64,000 nt of DNA from positions 558,001-622,000 of the forward strand of contig NZ_FRCS01000005.1 in the NCBI RefSeq assembly GCF_900143005.1, in the 5' to 3' direction. Origin of the DNA: Cryptosporangium aurantiacum (GTDB taxonomy: Bacteria; Actinomycetota; Actinomycetes; Mycobacteriales; Cryptosporangiaceae). Positions 24,446 through 41,185 of the stretch are shown in pieces. The position numbers and the translations under genes are program-made. Each line of letters opens with the position of its first letter. The stretch's first letter is position 1. Below the pieces are notes generated by a model that saw only the letters and a program-made list of their open reading frames with translations, ran no database searches and had not been told where the DNA came from.

Positions 24446-25090
24446 ACCGGGTCCGCGAGACCTCACTTCGCAGCGGGAGCCGACTTGCCGACGTCGCGGC
24501 CGGCTCGGAACTGACCCGCCGAACGGCGGAGGCGCGCCCCGCCGGAAAGGTAGAACAGCGTCCCCACCCGGCCAGCCTTCGCTGCGGCGCCCAGGAGCGG
24601 GCACGAGTGTTCCCGAGCGAACATTCCGGACGTCATCGCCACGATCGCCGGTCCGCCGCGCCGCTAGCACGCTGAGGTCAACTCACCGACGACATCCGTG
24701 GAGGACCGGGACCATGAGCATCACTCTGGACGTACTGGACGTGAACACCGGCCGGCGCTGCCCCTGCGACCGGCTCGAGCAGTCGACGGTCCCCGGTCCG
24801 GGTGGGTGTGTCGGTCGTCCGGAGCCTGGTCAGGACGGGCCACTGTCGCAGGCCGCGCGCACCGCGGTCTGAGTTTCGGGTGGGCGACCGTCGCGATGCG
24901 ACGGTGCAGCTCAGCCGGTCGACGGTGAACAGTGTCGGGGTTCTGACTCCCCACCGAGACCGGCCTCTTGTCCGGTTACGCCGCCCTGGACTGCGTGATA
25001 ACTTTCTCCGGATTCATGGTCCAGTCACAGGCGCCGGCTACCGCCGATGATCGACGCTCCTCTAAGCCCCTCCGAGTGGAGGAACTCCCT
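24446..25090. other. Largely non-coding region between mhuD and the signalling cluster
   Basis: This 645-base gap holds only one possible small gene (24714-24872). Before it I see no conserved signal. After it, 24873-25090 is the promoter and leader region of the five-gene signalling block and contains GTGGAGGAAC just before the first ATG. I find no RNA gene. Confidence 0.4.
24714..24872 (+). CDS. Possible 52-residue small protein
   Basis: An ATG preceded by GGAGG nine bases upstream opens a 52-codon frame (MSITLDVLDVNTGRRCPCDR at its N-terminus). It has a CPC pair and a later single Cys and no hydrophobic segment. Codon use is actinobacterial in the first half and weaker in the second. It could be a genuine small protein or chance; no family is recognised. 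Confidence 0.35.
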   Translation: MSITLDVLDVNTGRRCPCDRLEQSTVPGPGGCVGRPEPGQDGPLSQAARTAV

Positions 25091-26914
25091 ATGCGTCTGC
25101 CTCGTCTCCGGCTGACCGCAGCGGTTCTTGCTGTTTGCGTCTCGGCCCTCACGCTTGGTATCGCCACCCCGGCCGAGGCCCACAAGCATCCCACGCCGGC
25201 CGAGCTGATCGCCCCAGCCGTGGTCCGGATCATGACCTACGGCAAGGTCAGCATCTCGTTGATCGAGCACAACTTCCGTGGCTCGACCGGTAACGACATC
25301 TCGCTCGTGCAGCGCTCCTACCAGCCGATGCTGGGCACCGGCAGCGGCTTCGTGGTCAACCCGAGCGGCACGATCATCACGTCGCCGACGGTCACCGGCG
25401 TCGACCTGAACCGGGCGGCGATCTTCGCGGTCAACAAGATCTTCAACGAGCGCTACGGCGACGGCGCCCCGATGCCCGCCGACCCGTATACGAAGGCCAA
25501 GCCGTCGGCCAACACCGACGACGTGGTCAGCAAGCGGCTGCAACGCTGCTATCAGGGCAACACCACCGACGAGACCGGCGGCTGCGTCATCTTCACGCAG
25601 GCCGTGGTCACCGTTCAGCCGTTCGTCTCCGACCAGAAACAGTTCGGCGACCTGCCGGCCCAGGTCGTGTACCCCACCGGCGGTAAGAAGTCGGACGTGG
25701 CGGTGCTGAAGGTCGGCGCGAGCAGCATGCCTTCGGTCGTCTACGGCAACTCGGCCGACAACGCCGAGGCGGTCAGCACGCTGGGCTTCACGAACACGCC
25801 GACCGACGAGAAGTCGCTCAAGGCGACCCAGGCGCACTTCACGAAGAAGGGCAGCGGCGTCGTCCGCCCCAACGACGACTACCTGGCCGAGCTCAACCGC
25901 GGCTTCACCGACGGTATGTCCGGCGGGCCGGTCGTGTCGGAGAAGGGTCAGGTCATCGGGTTCCTGGCCAAGTCCGGCAACGAGATCAAGCTGGTCGGTC
26001 CGGATCAGATCGCCGAGGCACTGGCCGCGGTGGACGTGAAGGCCGAACGTGGCCCCACCGACCTCGTCTACGAGAACGCGCTGCACAACTTCAACAACCA
26101 GCTCTACACCGCCGCCGCGCCGAACCTGTCGCAAGTCCTCAAGCTCTACCCGGGCCACGCGCTGGCTTCGCAGAAGCTGACGGTCGCCAACCAGCGCAAG
26201 GGCACGTCGGCCGACAAGGGCACCGACGGCGCCACCGACACGTCCGGGTTCGGCACCACCGACGAGCAGAGCTCCGGTGGCTCCGACGGATCCAGCAACA
26301 TCCTGCTCTGGGGTGGTCTGGGCGCGATCGTCGTGCTGGCGGTCCTGCTCGGTGCCGTGCTGCTGCGGGGACGCGGCGGCAAGGGACAGCCGGAGACGGC
26401 CGCACCGCCGCCGGACCCGAACCTGATGCCCGGTTACGGGCAACCCGGTCCGCCGATGCCGCTGGGCGCGCCGTACCCGGGCGCGGTCGGATCGCCGGCG
26501 AGCGCTCCGCCCGCCACGTGGCCGACGTCGGCCCCGCCCGGCTGGGTCGACCCGCGCCAGCCCGGTACCCCCTACCCGGTCCAGAACCCGTACCCGGGTG
26601 TGCCGAACTACAGCGAGACGCCGTACGGCGCACCCGCGTCCGGCGTCCCCTATGCGGATCCGAACGGAGAGCAGCAGACCGTGCTCCGGCTCTCGCCGTC
26701 GACGCCGCCACCCATTCCCGGACAGAGCAACCCGTCCGGCGCCACGGTCGTCGCGGGAGAGGGAACACCGGGCGCCGAGGGCGCGCCGGCAGGCGTGATG
26801 GCCCGTCAGGGCGAGAACGGTGCCGGCGACGTCGCGGCTAGCTGCGACCAATGTGGGCAGACGCTCGTCCCGGGGCAGCAGTTCTGCGGTTACTGCGGAA
26901 ACCGGGTGCACTGA
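25091..26914 (+). CDS. Membrane-anchored trypsin-like protein, catalytic His missing, with zinc-ribbon tail
   Basis: The 607-residue protein has a signal peptide (cleavage after PAEA, residue 30), an extracellular trypsin/HtrA-like domain, one membrane helix (residues about 402-427), a Pro-rich cytoplasmic linker and a C-terminal zinc ribbon (CDQCG, then CGYCGN). GTGSGFVV and DGMSGGPVV (Ser near 277) and the Asp in SDVAVLKV (near 203) are present, but where HV is expected the sequence reads SPTVTGVD, so the charge-relay His is absent. It may sense rather than cleave. GGAGG precedes the ATG. It is the first gene of the signalling block, 28 bases before the kinase. Confidence 0.8.
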   Translation: MRLPRLRLTAAVLAVCVSALTLGIATPAEAHKHPTPAELIAPAVVRIMTYGKVSISLIEHNFRGSTGNDISLVQRSYQPMLGTGSGFVVNPSGTIITSPTVTGVDLNRAAIFAVNKIFNERYGDGAPMPADPYTKAKPSANTDDVVSKRLQRCYQGNTTDETGGCVIFTQAVVTVQPFVSDQKQFGDLPAQVVYPTGGKKSDVAVLKVGASSMPSVVYGNSADNAEAVSTLGFTNTPTDEKSLKATQAHFTKKGSGVVRPNDDYLAELNRGFTDGMSGGPVVSEKGQVIGFLAKSGNEIKLVGPDQIAEALAAVDVKAERGPTDLVYENALHNFNNQLYTAAAPNLSQVLKLYPGHALASQKLTVANQRKGTSADKGTDGATDTSGFGTTDEQSSGGSDGSSNILLWGGLGAIVVLAVLLGAVLLRGRGGKGQPETAAPPPDPNLMPGYGQPGPPMPLGAPYPGAVGSPASAPPATWPTSAPPGWVDPRQPGTPYPVQNPYPGVPNYSETPYGAPASGVPYADPNGEQQTVLRLSPSTPPPIPGQSNPSGATVVAGEGTPGAEGAPAGVMARQGENGAGDVAASCDQCGQTLVPGQQFCGYCGNRVH

Positions 26915-26942
26915 AACGTGTCGAACGAACCGGTGGTCAACG

Positions 26943-29003
26943 ATGAGTGATCCAGTCGAGTCCGCGCGCCTGGACGGGCTACGCGCTGCGGGCTACGAGC
27001 TGCAGTCGCTGATCGGACGCGGTGGGATGGCGTACGTCTACCGCGCCGAGGACACCCGGCTGGGCCGCGTCGTCGCGGTGAAGGTGCTGGCGCCGGAACT
27101 CGCCCAGAACGACGAGTTCCGGCAGCGGTTCCTCCGTGAGTCGCGCCTGGCGGCGTCCCTCGACCACCCGAACATCATCCCGATCTACGAGGCCGGCGAG
27201 GCCGACGGCCACCTGTACCTGGCCATGCGGTACGTGGAGGGCGCCGACCTCAAGGTCGTCCTCAAGCGTCGCGGGACGCTGACCGTCGACGAGACGATGG
27301 CGCTATTCGGGCAGGTCGGTGCCGCGCTCGACGCCGCCCACCAGGCCGGTCTCGTGCACCGTGACGTCAAGCCGGCCAACATCCTGGTCTCGGCGGCGAC
27401 CACTCCGGCCGGGCGCGACCACGTGTACCTGAGCGACTTCGGCCTGACCAAGCGGGCATCGTCGCTGACTGGCGTCACCGCCACCGGCATCGTCGTCGGG
27501 ACGATGGACTACGTCGCGCCGGAGCAGATCGGCGGCAAGGCGGTCGACGCCCGGACCGACGTGTACGCGCTGGGATGCGTGCTGTACCAGGCGCTGACCG
27601 GCAAGGTGCCGTTCATCCGGGACGACGACGCCGCGCTGCTGTGGGCGCACCTGATGGAGATGCCGACGCCGGTCAGCTCCGTGCGTCCGGAGATCCCGGT
27701 GGCCGTCGACCAGGTGATCGCGACCGCGATGGCGAAGGGCCCGGAGGGCCGGTTCGCCTCCTGCGGTGACTTCATCGCGGCGCTGGGAGCGGCGTTCGGC
27801 GGGCAGCAGGTCAACCTGCCTGCCAGCGCGTCGGGCGGGCCCGGGGTGAGCCCGAACAGCGCACCGCCGGCCACCCACCCGGAACCGCCGCAGCCTCCGA
27901 CGGCGCAGACCCCGACGCCTCAGACCCAGACCCCGACGCCGCAGCCTCCGACGCCGCACTCCCCGACGTCGGTGCCGCCGAGCGGGCCGATCACGCAGCC
28001 GCCGGTGCCCGGGTGGTCGGCGCCGCCGTCAACCGGTGCCGCCGAACAGCCGCACGGGACGCCGCTGCCGACGGCCCAGTACCCCGGTAACCAGTACCCC
28101 GGTAACCAGTACTCGCCGTCCAGCGCACCGCCGCACGGCACGTACCCGAACCAGTACTCGCCGACGCAGTTCCCGCCCAGCGGGTACCCGCACTCGGCGC
28201 CGCCGCATCCGCAGTCGGCTCCGCCGAACCAGGCGATGCCGCACCCGTACTCCGCGCCGCCCCACCAGGGGTCCGCACCGCCGTACCCGTACTCGGCACC
28301 GCCCCACCCCGGCTCGGCACCGCCGTACCCCTATTCGGCACCACCGCACGGGGTGGGGTCGACGCCGCCGCCCACGCCCGATTCGGGGCGCGGGCGGAAA
28401 CTGCTGATCGGAGGCCTCGCCGGCGCGCTGGTGCTCGCGGTAGTCCTCGTCCTCGTCCTCGTGATCAAGCCGTTCGAGGAGGGGACGAAGCACTTCGACC
28501 CCACCACGACGCTGCCGATCTCGTTCGACTACCCGGAGAGCTGGAACCGGTCGGGCCAGGGGACGAACCTGGTCTTCTCGCCGAAGGCGTCCGACGCCGC
28601 GGCGTTGTTCACCGCGCCCGGCACCGGAACCGGCTGGCCCAAGCTCGCCGACGCGCTGAAGAGCGACGCCGACTCGGTGGTCGGCGTCTACACGCTGCTG
28701 AGCCTCAACCCGTTCCCGGACGAGGCCGACGGCCGGAAAGAGTCGCTGCAGGGCCAGTTGCCCACCACCGCGAACCTCGGCGCCGAGGAGCCGACCGTCG
28801 TCGACGGCCACGACTCGGCCCGCTACGACGGCGAGCTTCAGCAGGACGGCGGCGACGCCGAACTCCGGATCCGGTGCTTCGTCACCACCGACCAGACGAC
28901 GAACCAGACCGTGGTGCTGGTGTTCTTCGCGTCGGAGAAGGCCTGGAGCGAGAACGAGGACAAGTTCAAGACACTGCTGGGTTCGGTCAAGTTCAGCGCG
29001 TAG
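26943..29003 (+). CDS. Receptor-type Ser/Thr protein kinase (PknB-like)
   Basis: The 686-residue protein has a Hanks kinase domain (residues about 17-280) with GRGGMAYVY, VAVKVL, HRDVKPANIL near 138 and DFG near 165, so it should be active. A ~200-residue linker of SAPPHP-like repeats leads to one membrane helix (about 485-508) and a ~175-residue extracellular domain that is not PASTA. The topology suggests an external signal switching the internal kinase. The genes on either side supply a possible sensor (trypsin-like protein) and, further on, an FHA domain that could bind its phospho-Thr product. Confidence 0.92.
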   Translation: MSDPVESARLDGLRAAGYELQSLIGRGGMAYVYRAEDTRLGRVVAVKVLAPELAQNDEFRQRFLRESRLAASLDHPNIIPIYEAGEADGHLYLAMRYVEGADLKVVLKRRGTLTVDETMALFGQVGAALDAAHQAGLVHRDVKPANILVSAATTPAGRDHVYLSDFGLTKRASSLTGVTATGIVVGTMDYVAPEQIGGKAVDARTDVYALGCVLYQALTGKVPFIRDDDAALLWAHLMEMPTPVSSVRPEIPVAVDQVIATAMAKGPEGRFASCGDFIAALGAAFGGQQVNLPASASGGPGVSPNSAPPATHPEPPQPPTAQTPTPQTQTPTPQPPTPHSPTSVPPSGPITQPPVPGWSAPPSTGAAEQPHGTPLPTAQYPGNQYPGNQYSPSSAPPHGTYPNQYSPTQFPPSGYPHSAPPHPQSAPPNQAMPHPYSAPPHQGSAPPYPYSAPPHPGSAPPYPYSAPPHGVGSTPPPTPDSGRGRKLLIGGLAGALVLAVVLVLVLVIKPFEEGTKHFDPTTTLPISFDYPESWNRSGQGTNLVFSPKASDAAALFTAPGTGTGWPKLADALKSDADSVVGVYTLLSLNPFPDEADGRKESLQGQLPTTANLGAEEPTVVDGHDSARYDGELQQDGGDAELRIRCFVTTDQTTNQTVVLVFFASEKAWSENEDKFKTLLGSVKFSA

Positions 29004-29018
29004 GGAGAGCCGCGGTCG

Positions 29019-29684
29019 ATGGAGTGGTCAACGCTGTCCATGATCAGCGACAAAGAGCGGCGTGAGCTGCTCGCGGTCGCACGGCGACGCAAGTTCCGCC
29101 GCAACGAGGTGCTCTTCCACGAGGGTGACCCGGCCAACTCGCTGCACCTGATCGAGTCCGGCCACGTCAGCGTCCGGGTGACGACCGGCGCGGGCGACAG
29201 CGTCACGCTGGCCGTCCTCGGTCCCGGCGAGACCGTCGGCGAGCTGGCTCTCCTCGAGGCCGATCCGAGCAAGGCGGTGCGCTCGGCGACCGTCACCGCG
29301 CTGGAGGGCTGCGAGACGCTGTCGCTGCAGCGCGACCGGTTCGACGCGTTACGTCAGCAATATCCCCGGGTCGACCGGGTGCTGGCCGAACTGCTGGCGA
29401 ACGAGGTGCGCCGGCTCAACGGCCGGCTGCTGGAGTTCCTGTACCTGCCCGCGGACAAGCGTGTGCTGCGACGCCTCGCCACGCTCGCCCGTGCCTACGA
29501 CGACGGACGCACCCGGCCGGTGGCGGTACCCCTGACCCAGGAGGTCATCGCCAGCCTCGCCGGCACCTCGCGTCCCACGACCAACCAGGCGCTCCGCGCC
29601 GTGGAGGAGGCCGGCATCATCGCGATCGGACGTTCGAAGATCGAGATCCTCAACCCGGCGGCGCTCGTGCGTAAGGCACGGTGA
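29019..29684 (+). CDS. Crp/Fnr-family transcription factor
   Basis: The 221-residue regulator has an N-terminal cyclic-nucleotide fold with VGELALLEADPS followed by VRSATV, which keeps the Glu and Arg used for cAMP contact, although two extra residues separate them. A long helix follows, then a C-terminal helix-turn-helix (LTQEVIASLAGTSRPTTNQA). It lacks the Cys cluster of Fnr. It begins 15 bases after the kinase gene and lies before an adenylate cyclase gene, so cAMP is the likely ligand. Confidence 0.9.
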   Translation: MEWSTLSMISDKERRELLAVARRRKFRRNEVLFHEGDPANSLHLIESGHVSVRVTTGAGDSVTLAVLGPGETVGELALLEADPSKAVRSATVTALEGCETLSLQRDRFDALRQQYPRVDRVLAELLANEVRRLNGRLLEFLYLPADKRVLRRLATLARAYDDGRTRPVAVPLTQEVIASLAGTSRPTTNQALRAVEEAGIIAIGRSKIEILNPAALVRKAR

Positions 29685-29992
29685 CCGGGGCCCGAGGCCC
29701 GCTGGCCGCCACTCCGCCCGCTGACGACCGCCCCACCGTCCCTTTCGGCACGCCGATCTCCTTGCTCGCGACCGATGCGCGGCACGGGGCGAGCACCGCG
29801 CGCCGGTTACGGCCCGAAGTGCGGCCCCGTGACGTCGGGGTCGACGGACAAGCGACCGTGCTGGCGCACCAGGAGCCACGGCCGACGCCTCCGTCGACCG
29901 TCGCCACGGACACGACGCGTGAGCTGTCCCACGTAGTCAGGTCCCCGTCAGTCCGGGTGGGCCAGGGAGCGGCGGACGCCTACGCTACCTCC
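29685..29992 (+). promoter_or_regulatory. Gap with a leaderless-type promoter for the cyclase gene
   Basis: This 308-base stretch is open in the cyclase frame but reads as Pro/Arg-rich sequence without any domain, so I treat it as non-coding. TACGCT at 29981-29986 fits the -10 consensus and ends six bases before the GTG at 29993, which has no ribosome-binding site. The alternative is a 104-residue N-terminal extension starting at 29681, where a GTG overlaps the crp stop. Confidence 0.45.
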
Positions 29993-32900
29993 GTGCCGAC
30001 CGTGCTCAGGTGCTCGAACTGCGGCGAGGAGAACAACCCGCCGCAGGCTCGGTTCTGCTTTTCCTGCGGAAACGCGTTGACCTCCGACGACACCCGCGAA
30101 CTGCGCAAGACGATCACGGTGGTGTTCACCGACGTCGTCGGGTCGAGTTCGCTGGGTGAGCGCCTCGATCCCGAGGTGCTCCGTCGGATGATGACTCGTT
30201 ACTACGAGCACGCGACCGCTATCCACGTGAAGCACGGCGGCCGGGTCCAGAAGTTCATCGGTGACGCGGTCATGGCGGTGTTCGGGCTCCCGAACTCCCG
30301 TGAGGACGACGCCCTGCGTGCCGTCCGGGCCGCCGCGGAGCTGCACGCGTCGCTGGAGGACCTCAACCGGACGCTGGAGCGCGACTGGCAGGTCACGCTG
30401 AACCTGCGCACCGGCGTCAACACCGGTGAGGTCGTGATCGGCGCCGCGTTCCTGGGCCAGGACATCACGCTGGGCGACGTCGTGAACGTCGCGGCGCGAC
30501 TGGAGACCGCGGCCGAGCCGGGCAGCGTGCTGATCGGTGATGCGACCTACCGCCTGTCGCGGGACGCCGTGACCGCCGAGATGCTGCCGCCGATGACCGT
30601 GCGCGGCCGGGGCGTCCCGGTGGACGCCTGGCGGCTGCTCGCGGTGAAGCCGGGCGCCTCCGGCCACGCCCGCCGGCTGGACGCCCCGATCGTCGGCCGG
30701 GTACAGGAACTCGCGCTGCTGCAGCAGCTGTTCGACCGCGCCGTGGCCGAGCGGACCGTCCAATCCATCACCGTGCTCGGCTCCGGCGGATCCGGCAAGT
30801 CGCGCCTGCTCTACGAGCTGCTCAACCGCGTCGGCGACCGGGCGACCGTGTTGCGCGGCCAATGCCTGAGCTACGGCGACGGACTCACGTACTGGCCGCT
30901 GGCCGAGATCGTCCGCCAGGCGGCGGGTGTCGGCCCGGAGGAGGACACCGCCGCGGTCCGGCGCAAGCTCTCGGCGCTGCTCCCCGGCGACGACCGGACG
31001 GTGACCGCGCTGGCCGGGCTGCTCGGCGAGCCCACCGGCCCGACGATCCTGGAGCCACCGGCGACAGCCGCCAGCGTCGAGGACCTGCCGGAGGCGATGT
31101 TCCGGTTCGCGTCCACGCTGGCGGCGCGGCGTCCGCTCGTGCTGGTGCTGGACGACCTGCACTGGGCCGAGCCCGCGCTGCTCGACCTGATCCTCAAACT
31201 GGCCGAGTGGCTGCGCGACAGCCCGGTGCTGATCTGCTGTCTGTCCCGGCCCGAGCTGCTGGAAGCACATCCGCAGCTGAGCAGCGGCGGCACCAACACG
31301 CTGATGCTCGAACCGCTGACCGGCGACGACTCGGCAGCGCTGCTCGACAACCTGCTGGACGGCGCGGAGGGCGCCGAAGAGGTGCGCGCCCGGATCGTCG
31401 AGGCCGCCGAGGGCAACCCGCTCTACATCGAAGAGCTGGTCGGCATGCTGCTCGACGACGGTTTACTCGATCGAATCGACGGCCGGTGGACGCTCACCGC
31501 CGAGATCAACCGGCTCGCGGTGCCGCCGAGCGTCGGCGCGCTGCTGGCCGCCCGGTTGGACGGCCTGCCGAAGGGCGAGCGGGGCGTGCTGGAGCGCGCC
31601 AGCGTCATCGGCGACGTGTTCTACCGCAACGGCGTCATCGCGCTCACCTCGCCCGACCAGCGACGTGACGTCACCGGCGCGCTGCTGTCGCTGGTCCGCA
31701 AGGAACTGCTCCGGCCGGAGGGTTCGGTGCTGCACGGCGAGAGCGCGCTGCGCTTCCGCCACCAACTGGTCCGGGACGCCGCTTACAACTCGCTGTCGAA
31801 GCGGGAACGCGCGCACCTGCATGAGGCCGCGGGCCGCTGGATGGAGGAGACGCTCGCCGGCCGGCTGCCCGAGCTGGAGGAGATCGTCGGTTACCACCTG
31901 GAGCAGGCCGCCCGGTACCGCAGCGGCATCGGCCCCGCCGACCCGGACACGCTGGAACTGTCCCGCCGCGCCGCCGAGCACCTCGGCCGCGCCGGACGCC
32001 GGGCGTTCGCTCGGCGGGACATGCCGGCCGCGATCACGCTGCTGGGCCGGGCAACCGCGCTGCTGCCCGCCGAGCACCCCGGCCGGGTGGGGCTGCTGCC
32101 CCAGTTCGCCGCCGCGCTCGTCGAGCGGGGTGAGTTCGCCAGAGCGTCCGAATTGCTGACCGAGGCCGCAATGGCGGCCGACCGGACCGGCGACAACGAG
32201 TTGCGCCGCGAGACCGAAAAAGTGCGGTCGGTGCTGCGGCTGCTGTCCGGTCCCTCGACCGACGACCTGGCCGACGGCGGGGTCTCCCCGGCCCGCGCCG
32301 GGGAGCGCCAGCCGCTCCCCGACCTGACCACGACTGTGGAGCTCGGCGGCGGTGGCGGCGCCTCGGTCGCGGCCAGCTGGACGCTGCTCCGCGACGTTCG
32401 GTGGTTGCCCCGTGCGGTGAACAGCGTCGACCGGCCGCCGACCGACGCGGACTCCAGCGGTGCCGGCCCCGGCGCGGACGGGCGGCGGCAGGCGATCGCC
32501 AAGGCGTTCGCGCTCGCCGCCGTGCTCGGTGACGCTCCGGTCGAGCAAACGATCAGCCAGTACCGCGCCGAGCTGGCGAGCGTCTCGACCAACCGCACCG
32601 CCGAGGTCCGGCTGCGTGGTGCGCTGGCCGGGCTGACCGCGATGGCAGGCCGGTTCGACGACGCCCGTGAGCACCTGGTCGCCGCGCAGGCGATCACCGA
32701 CCGGCTGGGCCTGCGGGTCCGCGCGGTCTCGCTGGCCTACCTCGGCGGTTACGTCGAGATGCTGGCGGGTGACCCGGCGGCAGCGGCTGCGAAACTGCAC
32801 GCGGGAGCCGAGGAGTGCGCCCAGATGGGCGAGCGGTACGTGCTATCGAACCTGCTGGCGCTGCTCGCTCAGGCCCGGTACGCGCAGGGTGTGCTCGCCG

Positions 32901-33241
32901 AGTCGGCGCAGCTGGCCAGCGACGCCGAGCGGGCCGCACCGAACGACGAGATCGTCGCGCAGGCCACCGCACGGGCCGCCCGCGGGAAGGCCCTGGCCCG
33001 GCTCGGCCGGGTGGAACAGGCGGTGACCGCGGCCCGATCCGCGGTCGACACGGTCCGGGGTACCGGGCTGTCCACGGTGGAGGCGGACGTTCTGCTGGAC
33101 CTCGCGGAGGTGCTGGAGCTCTTGGGAGACCCGATCGGCGCGCGAATGTCGGCGTCCGAATCGCTGGATCGGTACGAGCGCAAGGGCAACGTGATCTCCG
33201 GCGCCCGCGCCCGCGCGGTCGTGCTGCGGCTGGGTGGGTGA
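29993..33241 (+). CDS. Class III adenylate cyclase fused to a STAND-type ATPase
   Basis: The 1,082-residue protein has an N-terminal zinc ribbon (CSNCGEEN, CFSCGNAL), a class III cyclase domain (about residues 38-215), an AAA/STAND ATPase with Walker A GSGGSGKS near 263 and LVLDDLHWAEP as Walker B, and a long C-terminal helical TPR-like region. Metal-binding Asp residues (VVFTDVVGSS, GDAVMAVF) are intact. The substrate-selecting Lys (KFIGDA) and Asp (LGDVVNVAARLE) point to ATP rather than GTP. It should therefore make cAMP, perhaps gated by the ATPase and TPR parts. The adjacent Crp protein is the obvious target. Confidence 0.88.
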   Translation: MPTVLRCSNCGEENNPPQARFCFSCGNALTSDDTRELRKTITVVFTDVVGSSSLGERLDPEVLRRMMTRYYEHATAIHVKHGGRVQKFIGDAVMAVFGLPNSREDDALRAVRAAAELHASLEDLNRTLERDWQVTLNLRTGVNTGEVVIGAAFLGQDITLGDVVNVAARLETAAEPGSVLIGDATYRLSRDAVTAEMLPPMTVRGRGVPVDAWRLLAVKPGASGHARRLDAPIVGRVQELALLQQLFDRAVAERTVQSITVLGSGGSGKSRLLYELLNRVGDRATVLRGQCLSYGDGLTYWPLAEIVRQAAGVGPEEDTAAVRRKLSALLPGDDRTVTALAGLLGEPTGPTILEPPATAASVEDLPEAMFRFASTLAARRPLVLVLDDLHWAEPALLDLILKLAEWLRDSPVLICCLSRPELLEAHPQLSSGGTNTLMLEPLTGDDSAALLDNLLDGAEGAEEVRARIVEAAEGNPLYIEELVGMLLDDGLLDRIDGRWTLTAEINRLAVPPSVGALLAARLDGLPKGERGVLERASVIGDVFYRNGVIALTSPDQRRDVTGALLSLVRKELLRPEGSVLHGESALRFRHQLVRDAAYNSLSKRERAHLHEAAGRWMEETLAGRLPELEEIVGYHLEQAARYRSGIGPADPDTLELSRRAAEHLGRAGRRAFARRDMPAAITLLGRATALLPAEHPGRVGLLPQFAAALVERGEFARASELLTEAAMAADRTGDNELRRETEKVRSVLRLLSGPSTDDLADGGVSPARAGERQPLPDLTTTVELGGGGGASVAASWTLLRDVRWLPRAVNSVDRPPTDADSSGAGPGADGRRQAIAKAFALAAVLGDAPVEQTISQYRAELASVSTNRTAEVRLRGALAGLTAMAGRFDDAREHLVAAQAITDRLGLRVRAVSLAYLGGYVEMLAGDPAAAAAKLHAGAEECAQMGERYVLSNLLALLAQARYAQGVLAESAQLASDAERAAPNDEIVAQATARAARGKALARLGRVEQAVTAARSAVDTVRGTGLSTVEADVLLDLAEVLELLGDPIGARMSASESLDRYERKGNVISGARARAVVLRLGG

Positions 33242-33245
33242 GCGG

Positions 33246-36200
33246 ATGGCCCAGCTCGTCGAGGTCCGCGAACCCGGGCTTCCGGCACGGACGGCGGTCA
33301 TCGACGGCGTCGTCGAGGTGGGCCGGGACGCGTCCGGAATCCTGCTGTCCGACCCCGAGACGTCCCGTCGGCACGCCGCGCTCACCAGCGTCGAGGACTT
33401 TCTGACCGTCCGTGACCTGGGCAGTACCAACGGGACCACGGTCAACGGCAACCCGATCCAGGCCGAGACGCTGCTGGAGCCCGGTGACATCGTCGGGGTC
33501 GGCGACGTCCGGATCGTCGTCATCGGACTGCTGACCGACGATCCGACGGACAGCGCGCCGACCGATACGAATCTGCCGGTCGGGCAGGTGGATACCGAGG
33601 AACTCCCGTCCGGCGGAGCCGCCCCCGCCGGCCCGGGCGCCGGCGGCCCTGGCGGAGCCGGCCCCGGTCCGGGTGGCCCTGGCGCAGCCGGCCCCGGCGC
33701 GGGGAGTCGCGGCTTGGGCGAGCCCGCCGCAGGCGGCCCTGGCGCAGGTGGCCCTGGCACAGGTGGCCCGGGCACAGGTGGCCCGGGCACAGCCGGGCCC
33801 GGCGCGGGCGGGCGCGGGCAGGCGCTGGGGAGCGCCCGGGTGGGAGATCCGCAGCCGGGCTCTGCAGGCGCCGGAGCCGGCGGAGCGGGCAGTGCCTCGG
33901 CGCCGATCCCGCGCGTGGGCGAACCCGCACCCAACGTCCCGGCGGCCGGTCGGGCGCAGGTACCGACGCCGCCCCAGCCCGCGGTGGGTTCCGCCGCGGT
34001 CGGGTCCGCATCCGTGAGCCCCGCACCCGCCTCTGACGGACCCCCGCGTCCCGCACTCGGATCGGCGCAGGTGCCGGTGCCGGTGGCCGGGCGCGCGGCG
34101 GTCACCCCGGGCCCGACCCCCCAGCCACCGCAGTACGACGGCGCCGCCGCCGAGGGCTCCGCGTTCCAGACCGGGCAGCCGCTGCTGCCGCTCCGGCCCG
34201 CGCTGGAGGAGATGGTCGCGAAGGAGACCGACGCGGCCGTCCTCCGGTATCGCCGGGGCAGCGCCGGTGAGGCCGCCGTCTCGGCCTACGCCACCGCGGT
34301 CAAGCGCGCCCGCAAGCGGCTGGCCGGCCTCGGCTCCGAACCGTGGGGCGTCAAGCCGCAGATCTGTCTCGTCGACCCGTTCCCGGACCCGGACGACCCC
34401 GGCTCGATCCTGACGTCCGGCACGGTCGTGGACGCCGCACGCGGCGAGATCTTCGTCGTCGTCACCGCGGAGTCGCCGCCGGAGCCGCCGGAGCGTCCGC
34501 TGGCGCTGTTCTTCGGTGCCGCGCTGCCCGCCGGTCGAGACGTCGAGCTGCTGATCGAGGGCTACGGCCTGCACCTCTGCGGCGTCCCGTCGGCCGACCC
34601 ATACCTCGCCGAGATCGACGAAGAGCGGGGTCTGCCGCCGCTGGTCCGCGCCGAAGGCGAGCTACGGACGCTGATGGCGCTGTCGTTCGTCCGATTCTTG
34701 CTGGAACGGGGCACCGAGGCCGACCTCTGGAAGGTCTTCACCACGTCCCGCCCGGGTCAGGTCGACCTGACCGTGCAGGAGATCTACGGCACCGGACTCT
34801 CCGGCCTCGAGGAGCAGTGGCTCCGCTCGCTGGAGGTCGAGGAGGACAAGGTCCGGATCACCGCGTTCCTGCGGCTGGCCGGGCGCTACCTGCGGCCGTA
34901 CATCCGGCGCGAGGTCGAGATCGGCTTTTACCTGCTGATCGAGCTCGCGTTCGTCGCGGTGTTCCCGTTCGCGTTCTCGCGGATGATCAACGAGGTCACC
35001 CAGCCCAACCCCAACTTCGACTACATCCTCCAGCTCATCGGTCTGCTCGCCGGGACGTTCGCGATCAGCCTGCTCGCCGAGCTGAGACGGAACTACGTGT
35101 CGGCGTTCGTCAGCTCGTCGATCGTCCGCGCGCTGCGCATGCAGATGTTCGCTGGGCTGCAGTCGCTCACCGCGCGCTGGTACAACGCCCGGAAGCAGGG
35201 CGACATCCTGTCCCGGCTGCTCTCCGACGTCGGCATGCTCGAGCAGGGCCTGTCGAACGCGGTCCGGGAGGGCCTGTTCCAGTCGCTCACGCTGATCGTC
35301 TCCGGCATCGTGCTGCTCCAGCTGAACTGGATCCTCGGGCTGATCGTCCTGACCGGCGCGCCGATCGTCGCGTTCATCTACCGACGGCTGGACGGGCCCG
35401 CGCTCAAACGCAGCAAGGCGGTCCAGGAGAACGTCGGTGCGCTGGTCTCGGTCGCGGCCGAGAGCTACCAGGCGCATGCGGTGGTCCAGGCCTTCGGCCT
35501 GGAGAACGAGGAACGCAGCCGGTTCGGCCGGGCGTCCGACCGGTTGTTCAAGCGTCAGCTGTCGCTGCAGCTGTTCAGCGGCTTGTTCGACCTTTCGGTG
35601 GACGCCGTCGTGACGACGCTGCGGCTGATCACGCTGGTCGTCGGCAGCTACCTGGTGATCAAGGGCAGCCTGTCGGTGGGCGACTTCGCGGCGGCGATCA
35701 CGCAGATCGCCACCGTCGTCGGCCCGGTGACCGCGCTGACCGGGATCGGGCAGCAGATCCAGACCTCGACGGGTGCGCTGTTCCGGGTCAACGAGATCCT
35801 CGGCGCGAAGCCGGAGATCGACGACCACCCGCAGGCCACCCCGCTTCCGCCGGTTCGCCGGGAGATCCGGCTGGCGGACATCTCGTTCTCGTACGACGGT
35901 GACCGGCCGACGCTGCGCGGCGTCGACGTCACGATCAAGGCCGGCACGAAGGTCGCGTTCGTCGGCCCCACCGGCGCCGGAAAATCGTCGACGCTGCAGC
36001 TCATCATGCGGTTCTACGATCCGGACCGGGGCGCGGTGCTGTTCGACGGCCGCGACATCCGCGGCGCGACGCTCGCGTCGCTGCGCGGCCAGCTCGGCGT
36101 CGTGTTCCAGGAGACGTTCCTGTTCGACGGGACGCTCCGCGACAACATCGGGCTCGGGCGGCTCGGCGCCTCACCGGAGGAAATCGAGAAGGCCGCCCGC

Positions 36201-37076
36201 GCCGCTCAGCTGCACGAATACATCACGACGCTGCCCCGGGGCTACGACACCCCGGTCGGTGAACGTGGGGTGCGGCTCTCCGGTGGGCAGCGGCAGCGGC
36301 TCGCGCTGGCGCGTGCGCTGCTCCGCGACCCCGCGGTACTGCTGCTGGACGAGGCGACCTCCGCACTCGACCCGCGCACCGAACGGCTGGTCGCCGAGAC
36401 GCTGGAATCGGTCAGCAGCGGCCGGACGCTGATCGCAGTCACGCACCGGCTCACGTCGATCGTCGACTACGACCAGATCTACGTGCTGGAGAGCGGTCAG
36501 ATCGTCGAACAGGGCACGCACGACGAGCTGGTTGCGCTCGGCGGTGTGTACGCCGACCTGTGGGCTGAGCAGAACGGTCTGCCGCGACCGTCGGAGACTG
36601 CGGGCGACGACGTCGTGGATCCGGCGGGCGCGCTGGCCCAGGTCCCGTTCTTCGCGGGTTTGGACGACGCCGAGCTGCGCATCGTGGCTGCTTCGCTACG
36701 GGAGATCCGGCTGGAGCGCGGCGACACGTTACCCGCGCGCACCGGGCAGCTCGCGGTCGTCGTGCGGGGACAGGGCCGGGTGTTCGCACCGGACCCGACC
36801 GGCCGCGCGGTGCAGGTCGCGGAGCTCGGTCCGGGGCAGGTGTTCGGGCTCGGGGCGCTGCTCGGCGACGACACCGCCGCTGAGCTGCGCGCCGACCGGC
36901 GGATGGAGCTGGGGATCCTCACCGAGCAGGCGCTCTACGCGCTGGCGACGCGGTTGCCGGCGGTGGCGGCTGCCCTCAACGCGCGCCGCTCCCCGTCCGC
37001 GCCGCTCGGCGGCGAGCGCCTCTCTCAGGTGCGGATGCTGCCGCCGGAACTCCGCCGCTTACCGCCCGCGTCCTAA
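33246..37076 (+). CDS. FHA-ABC exporter-cyclic-nucleotide-binding-like fusion
   Basis: This 1,276-residue polypeptide starts with a canonical FHA domain (GRDASG, SRRHAAL, GSTNGTTVNG). A ~190-residue Gly/Pro/Ala linker follows, then a ~230-residue domain whose end (EIYGTGLSGLEEQWLRSLE) resembles peptidase-MA-like proteins but lacks HEXXH. An exporter-type six-helix membrane domain (about 557-845) leads into an ABC ATPase with Walker A GPTGAGKS near 906, LSGGQ near 1011 and LLLDEATSALD. The C-terminus (about 1128-1250) has a cyclic-nucleotide-binding-like fold reading VFGLGALLGDD, without the usual ligand Glu and Arg. The likely kinase partner is encoded upstream. The cargo is unknown. Confidence 0.85.
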   Translation: MAQLVEVREPGLPARTAVIDGVVEVGRDASGILLSDPETSRRHAALTSVEDFLTVRDLGSTNGTTVNGNPIQAETLLEPGDIVGVGDVRIVVIGLLTDDPTDSAPTDTNLPVGQVDTEELPSGGAAPAGPGAGGPGGAGPGPGGPGAAGPGAGSRGLGEPAAGGPGAGGPGTGGPGTGGPGTAGPGAGGRGQALGSARVGDPQPGSAGAGAGGAGSASAPIPRVGEPAPNVPAAGRAQVPTPPQPAVGSAAVGSASVSPAPASDGPPRPALGSAQVPVPVAGRAAVTPGPTPQPPQYDGAAAEGSAFQTGQPLLPLRPALEEMVAKETDAAVLRYRRGSAGEAAVSAYATAVKRARKRLAGLGSEPWGVKPQICLVDPFPDPDDPGSILTSGTVVDAARGEIFVVVTAESPPEPPERPLALFFGAALPAGRDVELLIEGYGLHLCGVPSADPYLAEIDEERGLPPLVRAEGELRTLMALSFVRFLLERGTEADLWKVFTTSRPGQVDLTVQEIYGTGLSGLEEQWLRSLEVEEDKVRITAFLRLAGRYLRPYIRREVEIGFYLLIELAFVAVFPFAFSRMINEVTQPNPNFDYILQLIGLLAGTFAISLLAELRRNYVSAFVSSSIVRALRMQMFAGLQSLTARWYNARKQGDILSRLLSDVGMLEQGLSNAVREGLFQSLTLIVSGIVLLQLNWILGLIVLTGAPIVAFIYRRLDGPALKRSKAVQENVGALVSVAAESYQAHAVVQAFGLENEERSRFGRASDRLFKRQLSLQLFSGLFDLSVDAVVTTLRLITLVVGSYLVIKGSLSVGDFAAAITQIATVVGPVTALTGIGQQIQTSTGALFRVNEILGAKPEIDDHPQATPLPPVRREIRLADISFSYDGDRPTLRGVDVTIKAGTKVAFVGPTGAGKSSTLQLIMRFYDPDRGAVLFDGRDIRGATLASLRGQLGVVFQETFLFDGTLRDNIGLGRLGASPEEIEKAARAAQLHEYITTLPRGYDTPVGERGVRLSGGQRQRLALARALLRDPAVLLLDEATSALDPRTERLVAETLESVSSGRTLIAVTHRLTSIVDYDQIYVLESGQIVEQGTHDELVALGGVYADLWAEQNGLPRPSETAGDDVVDPAGALAQVPFFAGLDDAELRIVAASLREIRLERGDTLPARTGQLAVVVRGQGRVFAPDPTGRAVQVAELGPGQVFGLGALLGDDTAAELRADRRMELGILTEQALYALATRLPAVAAALNARRSPSAPLGGERLSQVRMLPPELRRLPPAS

Positions 37077-37512: not shown

Positions 37513-37622
37513 CGGCATATAACGCCCTTTAGCTCTGCCTCGCCCCCATCGACCTCACGCATGCCCCCGGCTACCGGGAGTTGACCGGCACTGGAATGAT
37601 GCTGCGGGACCCGAGGAGAACG

Positions 37623-38909
37623 ATGGCGCCGGAACATCCCCCAGCCACCGGCCCCACGCCGGACGACCTGCCCGCCGAACCGACCGTTGCCGCTGCGTTG
37701 GCTCGCGCCGCCGCGGCTGCGAAGCGTGCCGACGGTGGTCAGGCACCGAGCCGTCAGCGCCCGAAGAACCGCCGCGGACGTTCGCAGGCGAATCCGTCCG
37801 TGCCGCTCGTAGGGGGCTCCCCGGTGCCACCGCCGTTCTCGCAGAATCCGGTGTCGGGCGACTTACCCGCACCCGATCCGGGCGCGCCGCCGGTGGTGCC
37901 GGCGCCGTTCCCCAAGACTCCGCTCCCGCCGCCGCCCGCAGTGTGGCCACCGACCGCGGTGGCCTATCCGACGACGCCGGGCCTGCAGTCCGCCGCGCCG
38001 CCCCGCCGAGCCGGCATCCCCGATCCCCCCGCCGCCCCCGACGCCCCGACCACCCCGACGACCGCAGCGGCACCCCCGCAACCCGCCCCACCCGCCGACG
38101 CCGCCCCCACGGGCGCGCCCTCGAGCCCGGCCCCCACAGCGGCTGCGGCTGCGAGCCCCGCAACGGCTCCGAGCCGGGCCGGAGCTTCGAGCGCGGCGGC
38201 GGGGACGGGTGGGGCGGCGGACGGGCCGACCGCGGTGCTGGCGCGCCCCGATGTTCCGCGACCCGACGGGAGCGCACCCGGCACGGCCGCGCCGAGCGCG
38301 AGCACGCCGAACGAACCCGCACCGACTCCGTCCGCGCCGAGCGGAACCCCGACCAGCGGTGGCGCGGGGCACTTTGGGGTGCCCGTGGCGTCCGAATCTG
38401 ACGCAGTACCGCGGGCCGAGACCATGGACTTCCCGGTCTTCGAGGCCTCAACCACCGCGGGCCCCCAGGGAAAGTGGGCGCTGGCCGCGGGCCGCTCCAG
38501 CGGCCGCCACGCCGCCGCCCTCGACACCGACGCCGGCACCGGCGCTCCCCCGAAGCGCGGCGCCCGCTCGAAGCTCGTGCTGCTCGGCGGCGCGCTGCTG
38601 GCGGTGCTGATCCTGGGCTTCGTCCTGGTGCTGCCCGCGTTGGCCGGCGGCTCCACCGAGGAGGGCAGCGAGCAGCCGTCACCGGCCGCTGCCACGCCGA
38701 GCGTCGCCCCGACGTCCGCCAGCCCGTCGCCGGTTCGGCCCAGCGCGTCGGCCGCCGCGGGTGAGTACCAGGAGCCGTACTACCCGCCGCCGGCGAAGCC
38801 CACCACCGAGGCTCCGGAGGAAGACTGGTACGACGACGGTGACTGGCCGGAGGACACCGAGGGCTGGGACGACGACGACTGGCGGGAGTGGTGGGAGGAG
38901 AACTACTGA
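37623..38909 (+). CDS. Pro/Ala-rich single-pass membrane protein with acidic Trp-rich tail
   Basis: The 428-residue protein has a ~310-residue cytoplasmic part that is almost entirely Pro, Ala, Ser and Thr, one membrane helix (LVLLGGALLAVLILGFVLVL, near residue 320-340) and a short external tail. The final 35 residues are very acidic and rich in Trp and Tyr (EEDWYDDGDWPEDTEGWDDD). GAGGAGA precedes the ATG. It resembles structural or scaffold membrane proteins of actinomycetes only in style; no family is recognised. It overlaps the convergent GGDEF/EAL gene by seven bases. Confidence 0.7.
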   Translation: MAPEHPPATGPTPDDLPAEPTVAAALARAAAAAKRADGGQAPSRQRPKNRRGRSQANPSVPLVGGSPVPPPFSQNPVSGDLPAPDPGAPPVVPAPFPKTPLPPPPAVWPPTAVAYPTTPGLQSAAPPRRAGIPDPPAAPDAPTTPTTAAAPPQPAPPADAAPTGAPSSPAPTAAAAASPATAPSRAGASSAAAGTGGAADGPTAVLARPDVPRPDGSAPGTAAPSASTPNEPAPTPSAPSGTPTSGGAGHFGVPVASESDAVPRAETMDFPVFEASTTAGPQGKWALAAGRSSGRHAAALDTDAGTGAPPKRGARSKLVLLGGALLAVLILGFVLVLPALAGGSTEEGSEQPSPAAATPSVAPTSASPSPVRPSASAAAGEYQEPYYPPPAKPTTEAPEEDWYDDGDWPEDTEGWDDDDWREWWEENY

Positions 38910-41185
38910 GCCAGTGACGTGTCGCGCGCCGTGTGCAGCGGCCCGGCAGGCGCTATCAGCAGCTCAGTGATCTCCGTGGGCGGCATCGGTTTGGCGAACA
39001 GGAAGCCCTGCGCGTGCCCGCACCGCAGGTCACGCAACCGATCGGCCTGCGAGACCCCCTCCACCCCCTCGGCCACCGGACGCAGCCCGAGCGTCTCGGC
39101 CAGCCCGAGGATGGCACGGGTTACCGCCTCGTCGGTCGGGTTGCCGTCCAGGTCGTGCACGAACGACCGGTCGATCTTGATCGCGTGGATCGGCAGCGTC
39201 CGCAGGTAGGTCAGCGACGAGTAGCCGGTCCCGAAGTCGTCGAGCGCGATCCGCACACCCAGGTCGGACAGTTCCCGGAGGGTCCGCGCCGCCAGCGCGA
39301 GGTCGGCGACGAGCGCGGTCTCGGTGACCTCCAGCATCAGCGCCTCGGCCGGAACGTCGGCGTCGGCGAGCGCTGCCGCCACCTCGTCGACGAGGCCGGT
39401 GTCCACCAGGTGCGCGGCGCAGACGTTGACGCTGACGACGAACTTGGGCGCCACGTGCCGCCGCCACTCCGCGACCTGATGACACGCCGTCCGCAGCACG
39501 TACCCGTCGATCGCGGAGAGCAGCCCGGCGGTCTCGGCGGACTCCAGGAACGCACCGGGCCCGAGCAGGCCACGGGTGGGGTGCCGCCAGCGCAGCAACG
39601 CCTCGACGGCGGTGATCCGCTCGGATGCCAGCTCGACGATCGGCTGGTAGTGGACCTCGAATTCGCCGGCGTCCAGCGCACCGCGGAGTTCCTCCTCGAG
39701 CCGCAGCCGGCCCAGCGTCGAGCTCGACAGCTCCTGGTCGGCGACGCGATACCGGTTCTTACCGCTCTCCTTCGCCTCGTACAGCGCCAGGTCGGCGTCG
39801 CGGAGCAGCAGGTCGGCGGTCGATCGGTCGTCGGCCAGCGCGATCCCGACGCTCGCCCGTACCGTGACCGGGCCACCCTCGCCGACCGAGGCGGGCTCGC
39901 CGACCCGCTCCAGGATCACGGTGGCCACCGCGACGGCGTCCGCCTCGCTCGACATGCCGGGCAGCAGCACCGCGAACTCGTCGCCGCCGAGGCGGGCAAC
40001 CGTATCCGTCGCCCGCACCGCACTCCGCAGCCGCCCGGCGACGGCGACCAGCAGCTGGTCGCCCGTGGCGTGGCCACGGGTGTCGTTGACCGCCTTGAAG
40101 CCGTCCAGGTCCACCAGCAGCAGCGCCGGTCGGGCGAGATCGGTGAGCAGCGCGGTCTCCAGCCGCTCGCTGAATAGCGTGCGGTTCGCCAGGCCGGTCA
40201 GCGGGTCGTGGTACGCCTGGTGGGCGAGCCGGGCGCGCTGGGCGCCCAGTTCGTTGCTGAGCGACGTCGTCATCCGGAGCGTCAGGAACTGCCGTCCGAG
40301 GATCGCGACCACCACCGCGGTCCCGAGGCCGACGACGACCGTGTCGAGCCGGCCGTGCTGGATCTGGGCCCGCAACGCGAACACGCCGAGCACTAGCAGC
40401 GGGAAGTACGGCAGGCCCTGGGCGGCGAACGTGGTCAGCCCGCGGTCCCGCGCCGGGCCGGTCGGGATCGGCAGGCCGGCGGACATCGCGACGGTGACGG
40501 CGCCGAGCTGGGCGAGCACATGGCCCCACTCCCACTCGTCGCCGCGGAGCGTCGTCGCCATCTCCAGGACCATCGACGTCGCGACCAGCGCGCCGCCCAC
40601 GGTCAGCCCGGTGAGCGCCGAGCGCCACACCATCTGGCCGTTGACCAGTAGCAGGACCGCGATCGAGACGACCATCACGAGGATCAGGCAGAGCACGATC
40701 AGGCTCACCGCGCCGCGGCCGACGTGCCGCTCGGCGTACCACTCGTGGCCCATCGCCATCCAGATGAGACCGGAGAGCGAGAGCGCGATGATCGCCCCGT
40801 CGCAGAGCAGCCGGATCTTGCCGATCCGCGTCGGTGGCGCCACCGGAAGCGCCAGCAGGGCCCCGACCGCACAGACCGACGGTGGGATCGAGAACAGCGC
40901 GAGGCTCGCGGTCCGGATCTGCTCGGACCATCCCAGCGGACCGCCGAGCGTGTGCAGCAGCAGGCCGGTCACCCAGAGCCCCATCGCGAGCGCGCCGAGC
41001 CGTCGACCGGTGCGGAGGCGCCCTTCGGCCTGCCGCCCGACGTGGACGTACCGGACCAGTGCCCACGCGATCAGGGTGACCAGGACCAGGTCGTCCACCA
41101 GTTCGAACACCGACGGCGTGAGGGTGCGGACCACGAGCGCGTAGACGACGACGGCGATCGCCGCCGCTATCCACCCACGCCGCAT
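38903..41185 (-). CDS. Membrane GGDEF-EAL protein, both domains intact
   Basis: The 760-residue protein has about nine N-terminal membrane helices (to residue ~310), then GGDEF (RLGGDEF near 398) and EAL (EALLRW near 527) domains. VTETALV, DDFGTGYSSL, KIDRSFV and AEGVE are all kept, so it can in principle make and degrade cyclic di-GMP. It is a tandem paralogue of the next gene: both begin MRRGW and share membrane topology and domain order. The upstream gene's stop lies only 46 bases away, so they form an operon with this gene second. Confidence 0.9.
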   Translation of the reverse strand: MRRGWIAAAIAVVVYALVVRTLTPSVFELVDDLVLVTLIAWALVRYVHVGRQAEGRLRTGRRLGALAMGLWVTGLLLHTLGGPLGWSEQIRTASLALFSIPPSVCAVGALLALPVAPPTRIGKIRLLCDGAIIALSLSGLIWMAMGHEWYAERHVGRGAVSLIVLCLILVMVVSIAVLLLVNGQMVWRSALTGLTVGGALVATSMVLEMATTLRGDEWEWGHVLAQLGAVTVAMSAGLPIPTGPARDRGLTTFAAQGLPYFPLLVLGVFALRAQIQHGRLDTVVVGLGTAVVVAILGRQFLTLRMTTSLSNELGAQRARLAHQAYHDPLTGLANRTLFSERLETALLTDLARPALLLVDLDGFKAVNDTRGHATGDQLLVAVAGRLRSAVRATDTVARLGGDEFAVLLPGMSSEADAVAVATVILERVGEPASVGEGGPVTVRASVGIALADDRSTADLLLRDADLALYEAKESGKNRYRVADQELSSSTLGRLRLEEELRGALDAGEFEVHYQPIVELASERITAVEALLRWRHPTRGLLGPGAFLESAETAGLLSAIDGYVLRTACHQVAEWRRHVAPKFVVSVNVCAAHLVDTGLVDEVAAALADADVPAEALMLEVTETALVADLALAARTLRELSDLGVRIALDDFGTGYSSLTYLRTLPIHAIKIDRSFVHDLDGNPTDEAVTRAILGLAETLGLRPVAEGVEGVSQADRLRDLRCGHAQGFLFAKPMPPTEITELLIAPAGPLHTARDTSLAQ

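Follow-up and report, generated by a model that had tools for sequence, protein, structure and literature searches.

When genes for a receptor kinase, a cyclic AMP (cAMP) circuit and an exporter stand in one run on a chromosome, do they form one system, and if so, what connects the kinase to the exporter? The question is raised by five consecutive genes of the actinobacterium Cryptosporangium aurantiacum (genome of 9.58 Mb). I considered them within a stretch of 64,000 nucleotides (NZ_FRCS01000005.1, positions 558,001 to 622,000 of the forward strand), which I will call the window. All coordinates are positions in the window, on its forward (+) strand except where the minus strand (-) is given, and the genes are named g1 to g5 in 5' to 3' order. 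By what means receptor kinases of bacteria perceive external signals, and how they reach transporters, are largely open matters. The reading that I favor, with a probability of about one half, is that these genes form a unit for sensing at the envelope, in which a receptor pair, g1 and g2, acts on the exporter g5. The strongest novel element is the pair itself, a pseudoprotease and a kinase, with a motif in the tail of the former.

The Five-Gene Block within the Genus

Open reading frame (ORF) coordinates and Pfam matches confirm what the original prediction said of this region: five co-directional genes with the domains and the gaps that it described. The first, g1 (25091-26914, 607 residues), encodes a pseudoprotease membrane protein; g2 (26943-29003, 686 residues), defined by alignment as well, a receptor Ser/Thr protein kinase (STPK); and g3 (29019-29684, 221 residues) a regulator of the Crp/Fnr type. 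A zinc ribbon, a class III adenylate cyclase, an ATPase of the AAA_16/STAND type and TPR repeats are joined in g4 (29993-33241, 1082 residues). The last gene, g5 (33246-37076, 1276 residues), combines an FHA domain, a low-complexity linker, a putative pseudo-gluzincin domain, an ATP-binding cassette (ABC) exporter of the ABCB type and an end that resembles cyclic nucleotide-binding (cNMP) domains.

Order and orientation are identical in four of four genomes of the genus, all that could be searched: the window and three relatives (loci L072, L073 and L074). Given in that sequence, the distance from g1 to g2 is 28, 29, 28 and 32 bases, from g2 to g3 15, 15, 18 and 16 bases, from g3 to g4 308, 284, 122 and 104 bases, and from g4 to g5 4, 4, 2 and 5 bases.

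A Pseudoprotease Paired with a Receptor Kinase

The layout of g1 is a signal peptide, a trypsin-like ectodomain with a half-TPR-like stretch, a membrane span (26300-26365), a Pro-rich cytoplasmic tail and a C-terminal zinc ribbon (26843-26896; Pfam matches below cut-off). The trypsin-like fold is indicated by a Trypsin_2 match of 38.1 bits (Pfam, cut-off 27.6). The absence of the catalytic His, already remarked on from the window alone, is real, its place being taken by the sequence IITSPTVTG, and it extends to the whole clade: among 28 aligned homologues, those of the genus included, none has the His and three have the Ser, so the His-Asp-Ser triad is not present. Within the genus the catalytic positions drift (His in 0/4, Ser in 2/4, Asp in 3/4), which is the behavior of a pseudoenzyme. 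HtrA and MarP share the trypsin-like fold, with NCBIfam scores against g1 of 32.4 and 21.1 bits, far below cut-off. Unlike them, the g1 clade lacks the His (28/28) and nearly always the Ser (25/28), carries a cytoplasmic tail with a zinc ribbon and is paired with an STPK gene.

The kinase encoded by g2 matches Pkinase at 166 bits (Pfam) and keeps all of the catalytic motifs VAVK, HRDVKP and DFG. A Pro-rich linker leads to a membrane span (about 28407-28463), and this to an ectodomain (28464-29000) to which AlphaFold2 and Foldseek assign a fold like that of PsbP and LpqN. The AlphaFold2 model, made from an alignment of 25 members, has a pLDDT of 92.7; its best match in the PDB is PsbP (2xb3; E 2.5e-7, TM 0.63), and LpqN (6e5d; E 6.4e-4) and MTC28, mycobacterial like LpqN, are also among the Foldseek matches. 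By sequence, PsbP matched 3 of the 25 ectodomains, below cut-off, with a best E of 0.056. I inspected 27 kinases (4 from the genus and 23 others) and found the span and ectodomain, the latter of 169-192 residues, in 26. The ectodomain at L105 ends with its contig and the kinase at L139 is cut before its ectodomain, leaving 25 that were aligned. No kinase ectodomain of the PsbP type was seen in six genomes of family f8, in which there was also no positive control. ARAGORN calls a tRNA-Cys on the opposite strand within the ectodomain coding sequence (28548-28644, minus strand), probably falsely.

Outside the genus, the two genes are found together again. The g1 ectodomain was detected in 14 of 200 genomes of the order at 1e-8 (genus counted in), in two of the 11 genomes searched in the family to which G185 belongs, and in 26 of 394 genomes of the class at 1e-15, with five candidates scored per genome; in the class sample, 16 genomes besides the window's own gave a match of 4e-53 or better. 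Forty-two loci outside the genus were fetched, 24 around best hits and 18 (of 20) around weaker trypsin-like matches. A kinase gene lies downstream of the g1 homologue in 23 of the 24 best-hit loci (6/6 plus 17/18, the 17 within 3 kb), and at the sole exception, L141, the contig ends there. The weaker matches were rejected as members of the family, as a kinase was present in just 1 of the 18 (L216). With 23 of 24 on one side and 1 of 18 on the other, the pairing marks this clade of g1.

The tail of g1 holds two Thr motifs, QTVLRLSP (26675-26698) and SGATVVAGE (26735-26761), that are candidate sites for phospho-dependent docking of an FHA domain. The tail is of low complexity and diverges fast, yet QTVL and GAT-x-V are kept throughout the genus (4/4 genomes), as QTVLR or QTVLH and as GATVV or GATAV. 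They resemble what I take to be the phospho-motif of GarA/OdhI. Variants of the pattern Thr-x-[VLI] in tails elsewhere include TVVVGRSFP, shared by all but one of the seven members in one group of family f31, TRVF in another group, and ERTEL and ERTRL in L140 and L108, respectively. The pattern is present in 6/6 loci with an FHA gene adjacent or in the cluster, in 0/4 loci with an ABC gene that has an APH-like C-terminal part (ABC-APH), and in 16/18 of those remaining.

The genes around the pair vary. In L140, from a distant family, a gene for a protein with two FHA domains, a nucleotide-binding domain (NBD) and an ABC2 membrane domain directly follows the pair, with gaps of 3 and 9 bases. In L108 a gene for an FHA-LuxR protein is the convergent neighbor, and the upstream gene encodes an aminotransferase. 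L104 and L107 have FHA genes farther off, rejected as partners of the pair because of that distance. No FHA gene was seen in 15 pair loci of family f31, and an ABC ATPase gene occurs somewhere in the 10-20 kb of each (15/15). At L130, according to Pfam, the ATPase belongs to an importer of the FecCD/BtuCD type with CbiZ, and a response regulator is also near the pair; at L136 a FecCD permease adjoins the ATPase, and a histidine kinase is near. In these two loci the ABC surroundings are of importer type; the other 13 may include an exporter. At L107 (10421-19153) the pair lies beside genes for a RimK-like ATP-grasp protein, an APH-like protein and an ABC protein fused to an APH-like domain, a neighborhood that resembles a small cluster for biosynthesis and export.

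An Exporter with an FHA Domain

Pfam finds in g5 the domains FHA, ABC_membrane, ABC_tran and cNMP_binding, with the membrane domain before the NBD; an alternative start, GTG, lies at 33234. The FHA domain (33315-33503; Pfam, 51.4 bits) retains GR, SRRH and NGT, which I take to be the canonical FHA residues. By sequence its neighbors in the PDB are GarA/Rv1827 (E 1.4e-8) and the FHA domain of Rv1747 (6cah; E 3.1e-7). GarA/OdhI is therefore the nearest FHA protein of known structure, with the difference that in g5 the domain is fused to an exporter. The NBD retains Walker A, signature and Walker B motifs. The original prediction had g5 as a fusion of FHA, ABC and cNMP-binding-like parts, and so it is, except that a domain in the middle had escaped notice and that the cNMP-like end lacks the cassette by which a cyclic nucleotide would be bound.

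The middle domain (34185-34913, about 240 residues) lies between the FHA domain and the membrane region and is, judged from profile comparisons, most likely a dead gluzincin-like domain, a degenerate relative of Peptidase_MA_2. Its Pfam match to that family is below cut-off (E 0.063). Over 21 genomes, the same model (PF13485) matched the middle domain of the G001 orthologue at 3.7e-4, also below cut-off, with one of the four genus genomes matched and three below-cut-off matches overall. Aligned by hhalign with 13 proteins fetched through Peptidase_MA_2, the four middle domains of the genus gave a probability of 89.2 and an E of 2.2e-6; those 13 came from 16 that the model fetched besides the middle domain itself, and 9 of them score over its cut-off. 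Two unrelated pairings, used as controls, gave 0.4 and 0.09. The zinc motif HExxH is lacking in 4/4 genomes of the genus. Among 397 genomes of the order the domain was found in four, all of this genus. In the class sample (n=394) the window's own genome matches, and four other matches, short and weak (E 0.001-0.009), are probably due to chance. A scan of genome contigs with the whole of g5 gave 63 loci, with matches to the ABC part (residue 537, approximately, onward) and none full-length, in a collection from which near records may be absent.

The C-terminal cNMP-like domain (36747-36947; FGLGALLGDDTAAELRADRR in the window) matches Pfam at 30.6 bits, against a cut-off of 27.5. In 4/4 genomes of the genus it is without the Glu and the Arg-Ser/Thr that presumably serve in the phosphate cassette of such domains, and direct switching of the exporter by cAMP is for that reason unlikely.

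The closest known system is that of PknF and Rv1747, in which, according to the accessible part of one report, an STPK gene stands in a run with that of an ABC exporter with N-terminal FHA and phospho-control has been described, the cargo being still unknown in 2013 (PMC3908365). The likeness is that the STPK gene g2 is in a co-directional run with the FHA-ABC gene g5, though not adjacent to it. The order of domains in Rv1747 is given as FHA-FHA-NBD-membrane domain in the available portion of another report (PMC9312465). In contrast, g5 has one FHA domain, a putative pseudo-gluzincin domain, a membrane domain before the NBD as in the ABCB type, and a cNMP-like end; two FHA domains and an NBD before an ABC2-type membrane domain are not found in it. 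The block moreover adds a pseudoprotease, a Crp protein and a cyclase. The order of Rv1747, as that portion has it, recurs at L140 behind a g2-type kinase. Since an FHA-FHA-ABC gene there directly follows the same pair, the link from kinase to exporter has independent support. The original proposal that the kinase controls the exporter by way of FHA is thereby strengthened through comparison, both with L140 and with the PknF-Rv1747 precedent (PMC3908365, in the part accessible), and the link is plausible.

From what was observed, namely the domains, the lost catalytic residues, the kept order, the recurring pair and the independent FHA-ABC neighbor, I infer a mechanism that comprises complex formation, phosphorylation, FHA docking, a cAMP output and a cargo. 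The g1 product, a type I membrane protein without catalytic His, would be the co-receptor of the g2 kinase, and a ligand or envelope stress would alter the pair. The kinase would phosphorylate itself and g1, the latter at the Thr-x-Val/Leu motif of its cytoplasmic tail, which is disordered, and the FHA domain of g5 would dock on the phospho-Thr, so that the ABCB-type exporter is recruited or switched. In g5, the gluzincin-like domain would not be an enzyme, nor the cNMP-like end a cAMP sensor; both, being dead, would act as modules for binding or coupling.

One Unit or Two

Several observations weigh against such a unit, and they are gathered here. The gene order, whose loss in related genomes had been named earlier as a refutation, holds throughout the genus, and the complete set of five was found in none of the genomes sampled beyond it, in a search that scored at most seven candidates per genome and would overlook FHA exporters that lack the middle domain. 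The scan of 24 pair loci revealed a nearby FHA gene in four (L140, L108, L107 and L104) and none in the other 20, and in L104 and L107, where it is several genes off, the g1 tail has no Thr-x-[VLI] motif. The excess of the motif, in itself a point in favor of the unit (8 of 11 clade representatives, compared to 3.0 expected from shuffled tails), has a nominal p of 0.001 that is optimistic, as both the pattern and the 11 representatives were picked post hoc. In four of six loci from two other families, the gene directly upstream of the pair is ABC-APH, and the core of g5 is no closer to the product of that gene than to paralogues in its own genome (33-37% identity). The assignment of the middle domain of g5 rests on profiles because neither the structure model nor the PDB gave anything useful: the AlphaFold model is of low confidence (pLDDT 34.7), and the sequence search of the PDB found no protease, the best match being Nup192 (E 0.2). 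Finally, g4 probably has a promoter of its own, to judge from the alignment considered below.

As to the ABC-APH gene, it is complete in L109 only, where it has an exporter-type membrane domain; the copies in L104, L105 and L107 are cut by the end of the contig inside the NBD, and the contig of L106 ends before that place. The APH match is significant by Pfam in L105 (6.6e-10) and not in L109. The core of g5 was rejected as an orthologue of this gene.

The spacer between g3 and g4 varies among the four genomes, with the exception of roughly the final 60 bases, which are well kept. Their alignment shows a promoter-like block at 29936-29961 together with TACGCT at 29981-29986, which ends 6 bases ahead of the GTG start of g4 (29993). 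In Mycobacterium tuberculosis, as described in the accessible part of PMC3898074, a TANNNT motif is centered 7-12 bases before transcription starts. TACGCT fits that position, and the start codon of g4 may therefore be the first base transcribed, giving a leaderless message by prediction. The start at 29993 is favored because one genome of the genus lacks the second GTG in frame. A start in frame upstream, at 29681, which would leave no gap, was rejected, since the stretch that it would add is not conserved and the spacer shrinks to 122 and 104 bases in two genomes. A scan for sigma-70 sites ahead of g4 gave no match. With a promoter at this place, g1-g2-g3 and g4-g5 would be expected to be separable units. 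A further block, upstream of g1 (24995-25024; GTGATAACTTTCTCCGGATTCATGGTCCAG in the window), is strongly kept in the four genomes.

Separable transcription leads to the rival that survives best, though I consider it rather doubtful: that g1-g2-g3 and g4-g5 are transcribed as different units and are functionally separate modules, that the exporter is not acted on by g2, and that the FHA domain of g5 reads some other kinase. Genomes of this sort usually hold many STPKs from which such a kinase might come, and the gap of 104-308 bases with its conserved block, like the rarity of FHA genes near the pair, fits this well. It fits less well with an order kept in 4/4 genomes and with the FHA-ABC gene directly behind the pair in L140, an independent case.

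The exporter might instead be the main substrate, as in Rv1747: g2 would phosphorylate Thr residues in the linker of g5, FHA domains would bind these, in the same exporter or from one exporter to another, and so cluster the exporters, and g1 would only tune the kinase. Rv1747 with PknF behaves in this way, so far as the available parts of PMC3908365 and PMC9312465 go, and the low-complexity linker that follows the FHA domain of g5 is indeed long. The length of the linker is, however, strongly variable, and a clear Thr motif kept by the whole genus is found in the tail of g1 but not in this linker; I regard this version as unlikely.

The cAMP Genes

The g3 protein consists of cNMP_binding and HTH_Crp_2 (Pfam), and aligned with a Crp-family structure it keeps GE and RS of the cAMP pocket (GELALL...VRSA). 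In g4, Pfam finds Guanylate_cyc and AAA_16, with the TPR repeats and the N-terminal zinc ribbon matched below cut-off; the Walker A and B motifs are kept. Alignment with CyaB (3r5g) and 2w01 shows that both Asp residues and the Lys are kept that I take to bind the metals and to recognize the base, respectively. The identity of the second base-recognizing residue, either Asp or Thr, depends on a one-position uncertainty in the alignment. The earlier statement that the substrate residues point to ATP is thus reasonable on the strength of the Asp and Lys, and not proven. Overall, the cyclase looks active.

A Crp homologue at 1e-25 was found in two genomes outside the genus, among 41, and close homologues (E at most 1e-38) in 40 of 394 class genomes, the window's own counted. 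Eighteen Crp loci were considered, the 16 best places outside the genus and two earlier ones, some on short contigs. A class III cyclase is near the Crp homologue in six (L086, L087, L183, L186, L188 and L189), compared to none of 18 control loci from other genomes. Four of these six also seeded the cyclase profile; five had already been detected with the window cyclase as the sole query, which found 0/18 controls, and L086 by Pfam at cut-off. The pairing of Crp and cyclase seems to travel on its own, and its tie to the kinase and exporter is one of genus-level synteny alone. The weak part of the original prediction is that cAMP sets transcription: the cyclase appears active and the cAMP pocket of Crp is intact, but location is the only tie of the two to kinase and exporter. 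In the proposed mechanism, the ATPase/TPR part of g4 would read a cue from the cytosol, to which the enzyme would respond by making cAMP, and g3 would answer to the cAMP as a transcriptional regulator, its target being most likely this cluster. In L087 (6854-9127) a gene for a protein of 757 residues that has two cNMP domains and a match to M50 peptidases just below cut-off adjoins those of the Crp homologue and the cyclase-ATPase.

Kinases and cyclases are also joined in the TOMM kinase/cyclase fusions (TIGR03903), which contain a Ser/Thr kinase and a class III cyclase-ATPase. The g4 protein fits the cyclase-ATPase part, scoring 248.8 bits relative to a cut-off of 705.75. In the window, unlike the fusions, kinase and cyclase are on separate genes, and no TOMM-type gene was found among the 27 window ORFs, from part of the window, that were sent to Pfam.

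Within the genus none of the other genes comes near g3 in conservation (95.9-99.5% identity, compared to 65-75% for the g2 kinase), and with the recurrence of Crp-cyclase neighbors this might suggest a circuit with g4 as its sensor and Crp as its main output, the kinase and exporter being mere targets of Crp, but a Crp site was not identified and the cNMP-like domain of g5 is without the cAMP residues, making such a circuit quite improbable.

The cluster is a genus-level assembly of three parts, the widespread pseudoprotease-kinase pair, the Crp-cyclase pairing and the exporter, and so illustrates how exporter, kinase and cAMP modules are put together from parts that circulate separately. No description of the combined set of five genes was found among the papers listed in searches of the open-licence literature. 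As a broader and tentative proposal, the pair may represent an undescribed class of actinobacterial receptors, in which a dead trypsin-like co-receptor and a kinase with a PsbP fold would use a phosphorylated Thr-x-Val/Leu tail to dock FHA effectors. Outputs would be specific to lineages, with FHA exporters recruited independently at least twice, and this genus would have added the cAMP circuit and, in the exporter, a second dead protease domain. The conserved partner of the kinase, a dead protease, offers a concrete candidate for a co-receptor, and its tail a concrete docking motif.

Neighboring Genes

Immediately after the block come two tandem genes for GGDEF-EAL proteins (38903-41185 and 41232-43445, both on the minus strand), and further up lies one for a GAF-GGDEF-EAL protein (4117-6741, minus strand), making the neighborhood rich in genes of cyclic di-GMP. 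The gene at 37581-38909 (+) encodes a protein rich in Pro and Ala that ends in a very acidic stretch and matches no Pfam family; it is kept behind the block in L072 with 64% identity.

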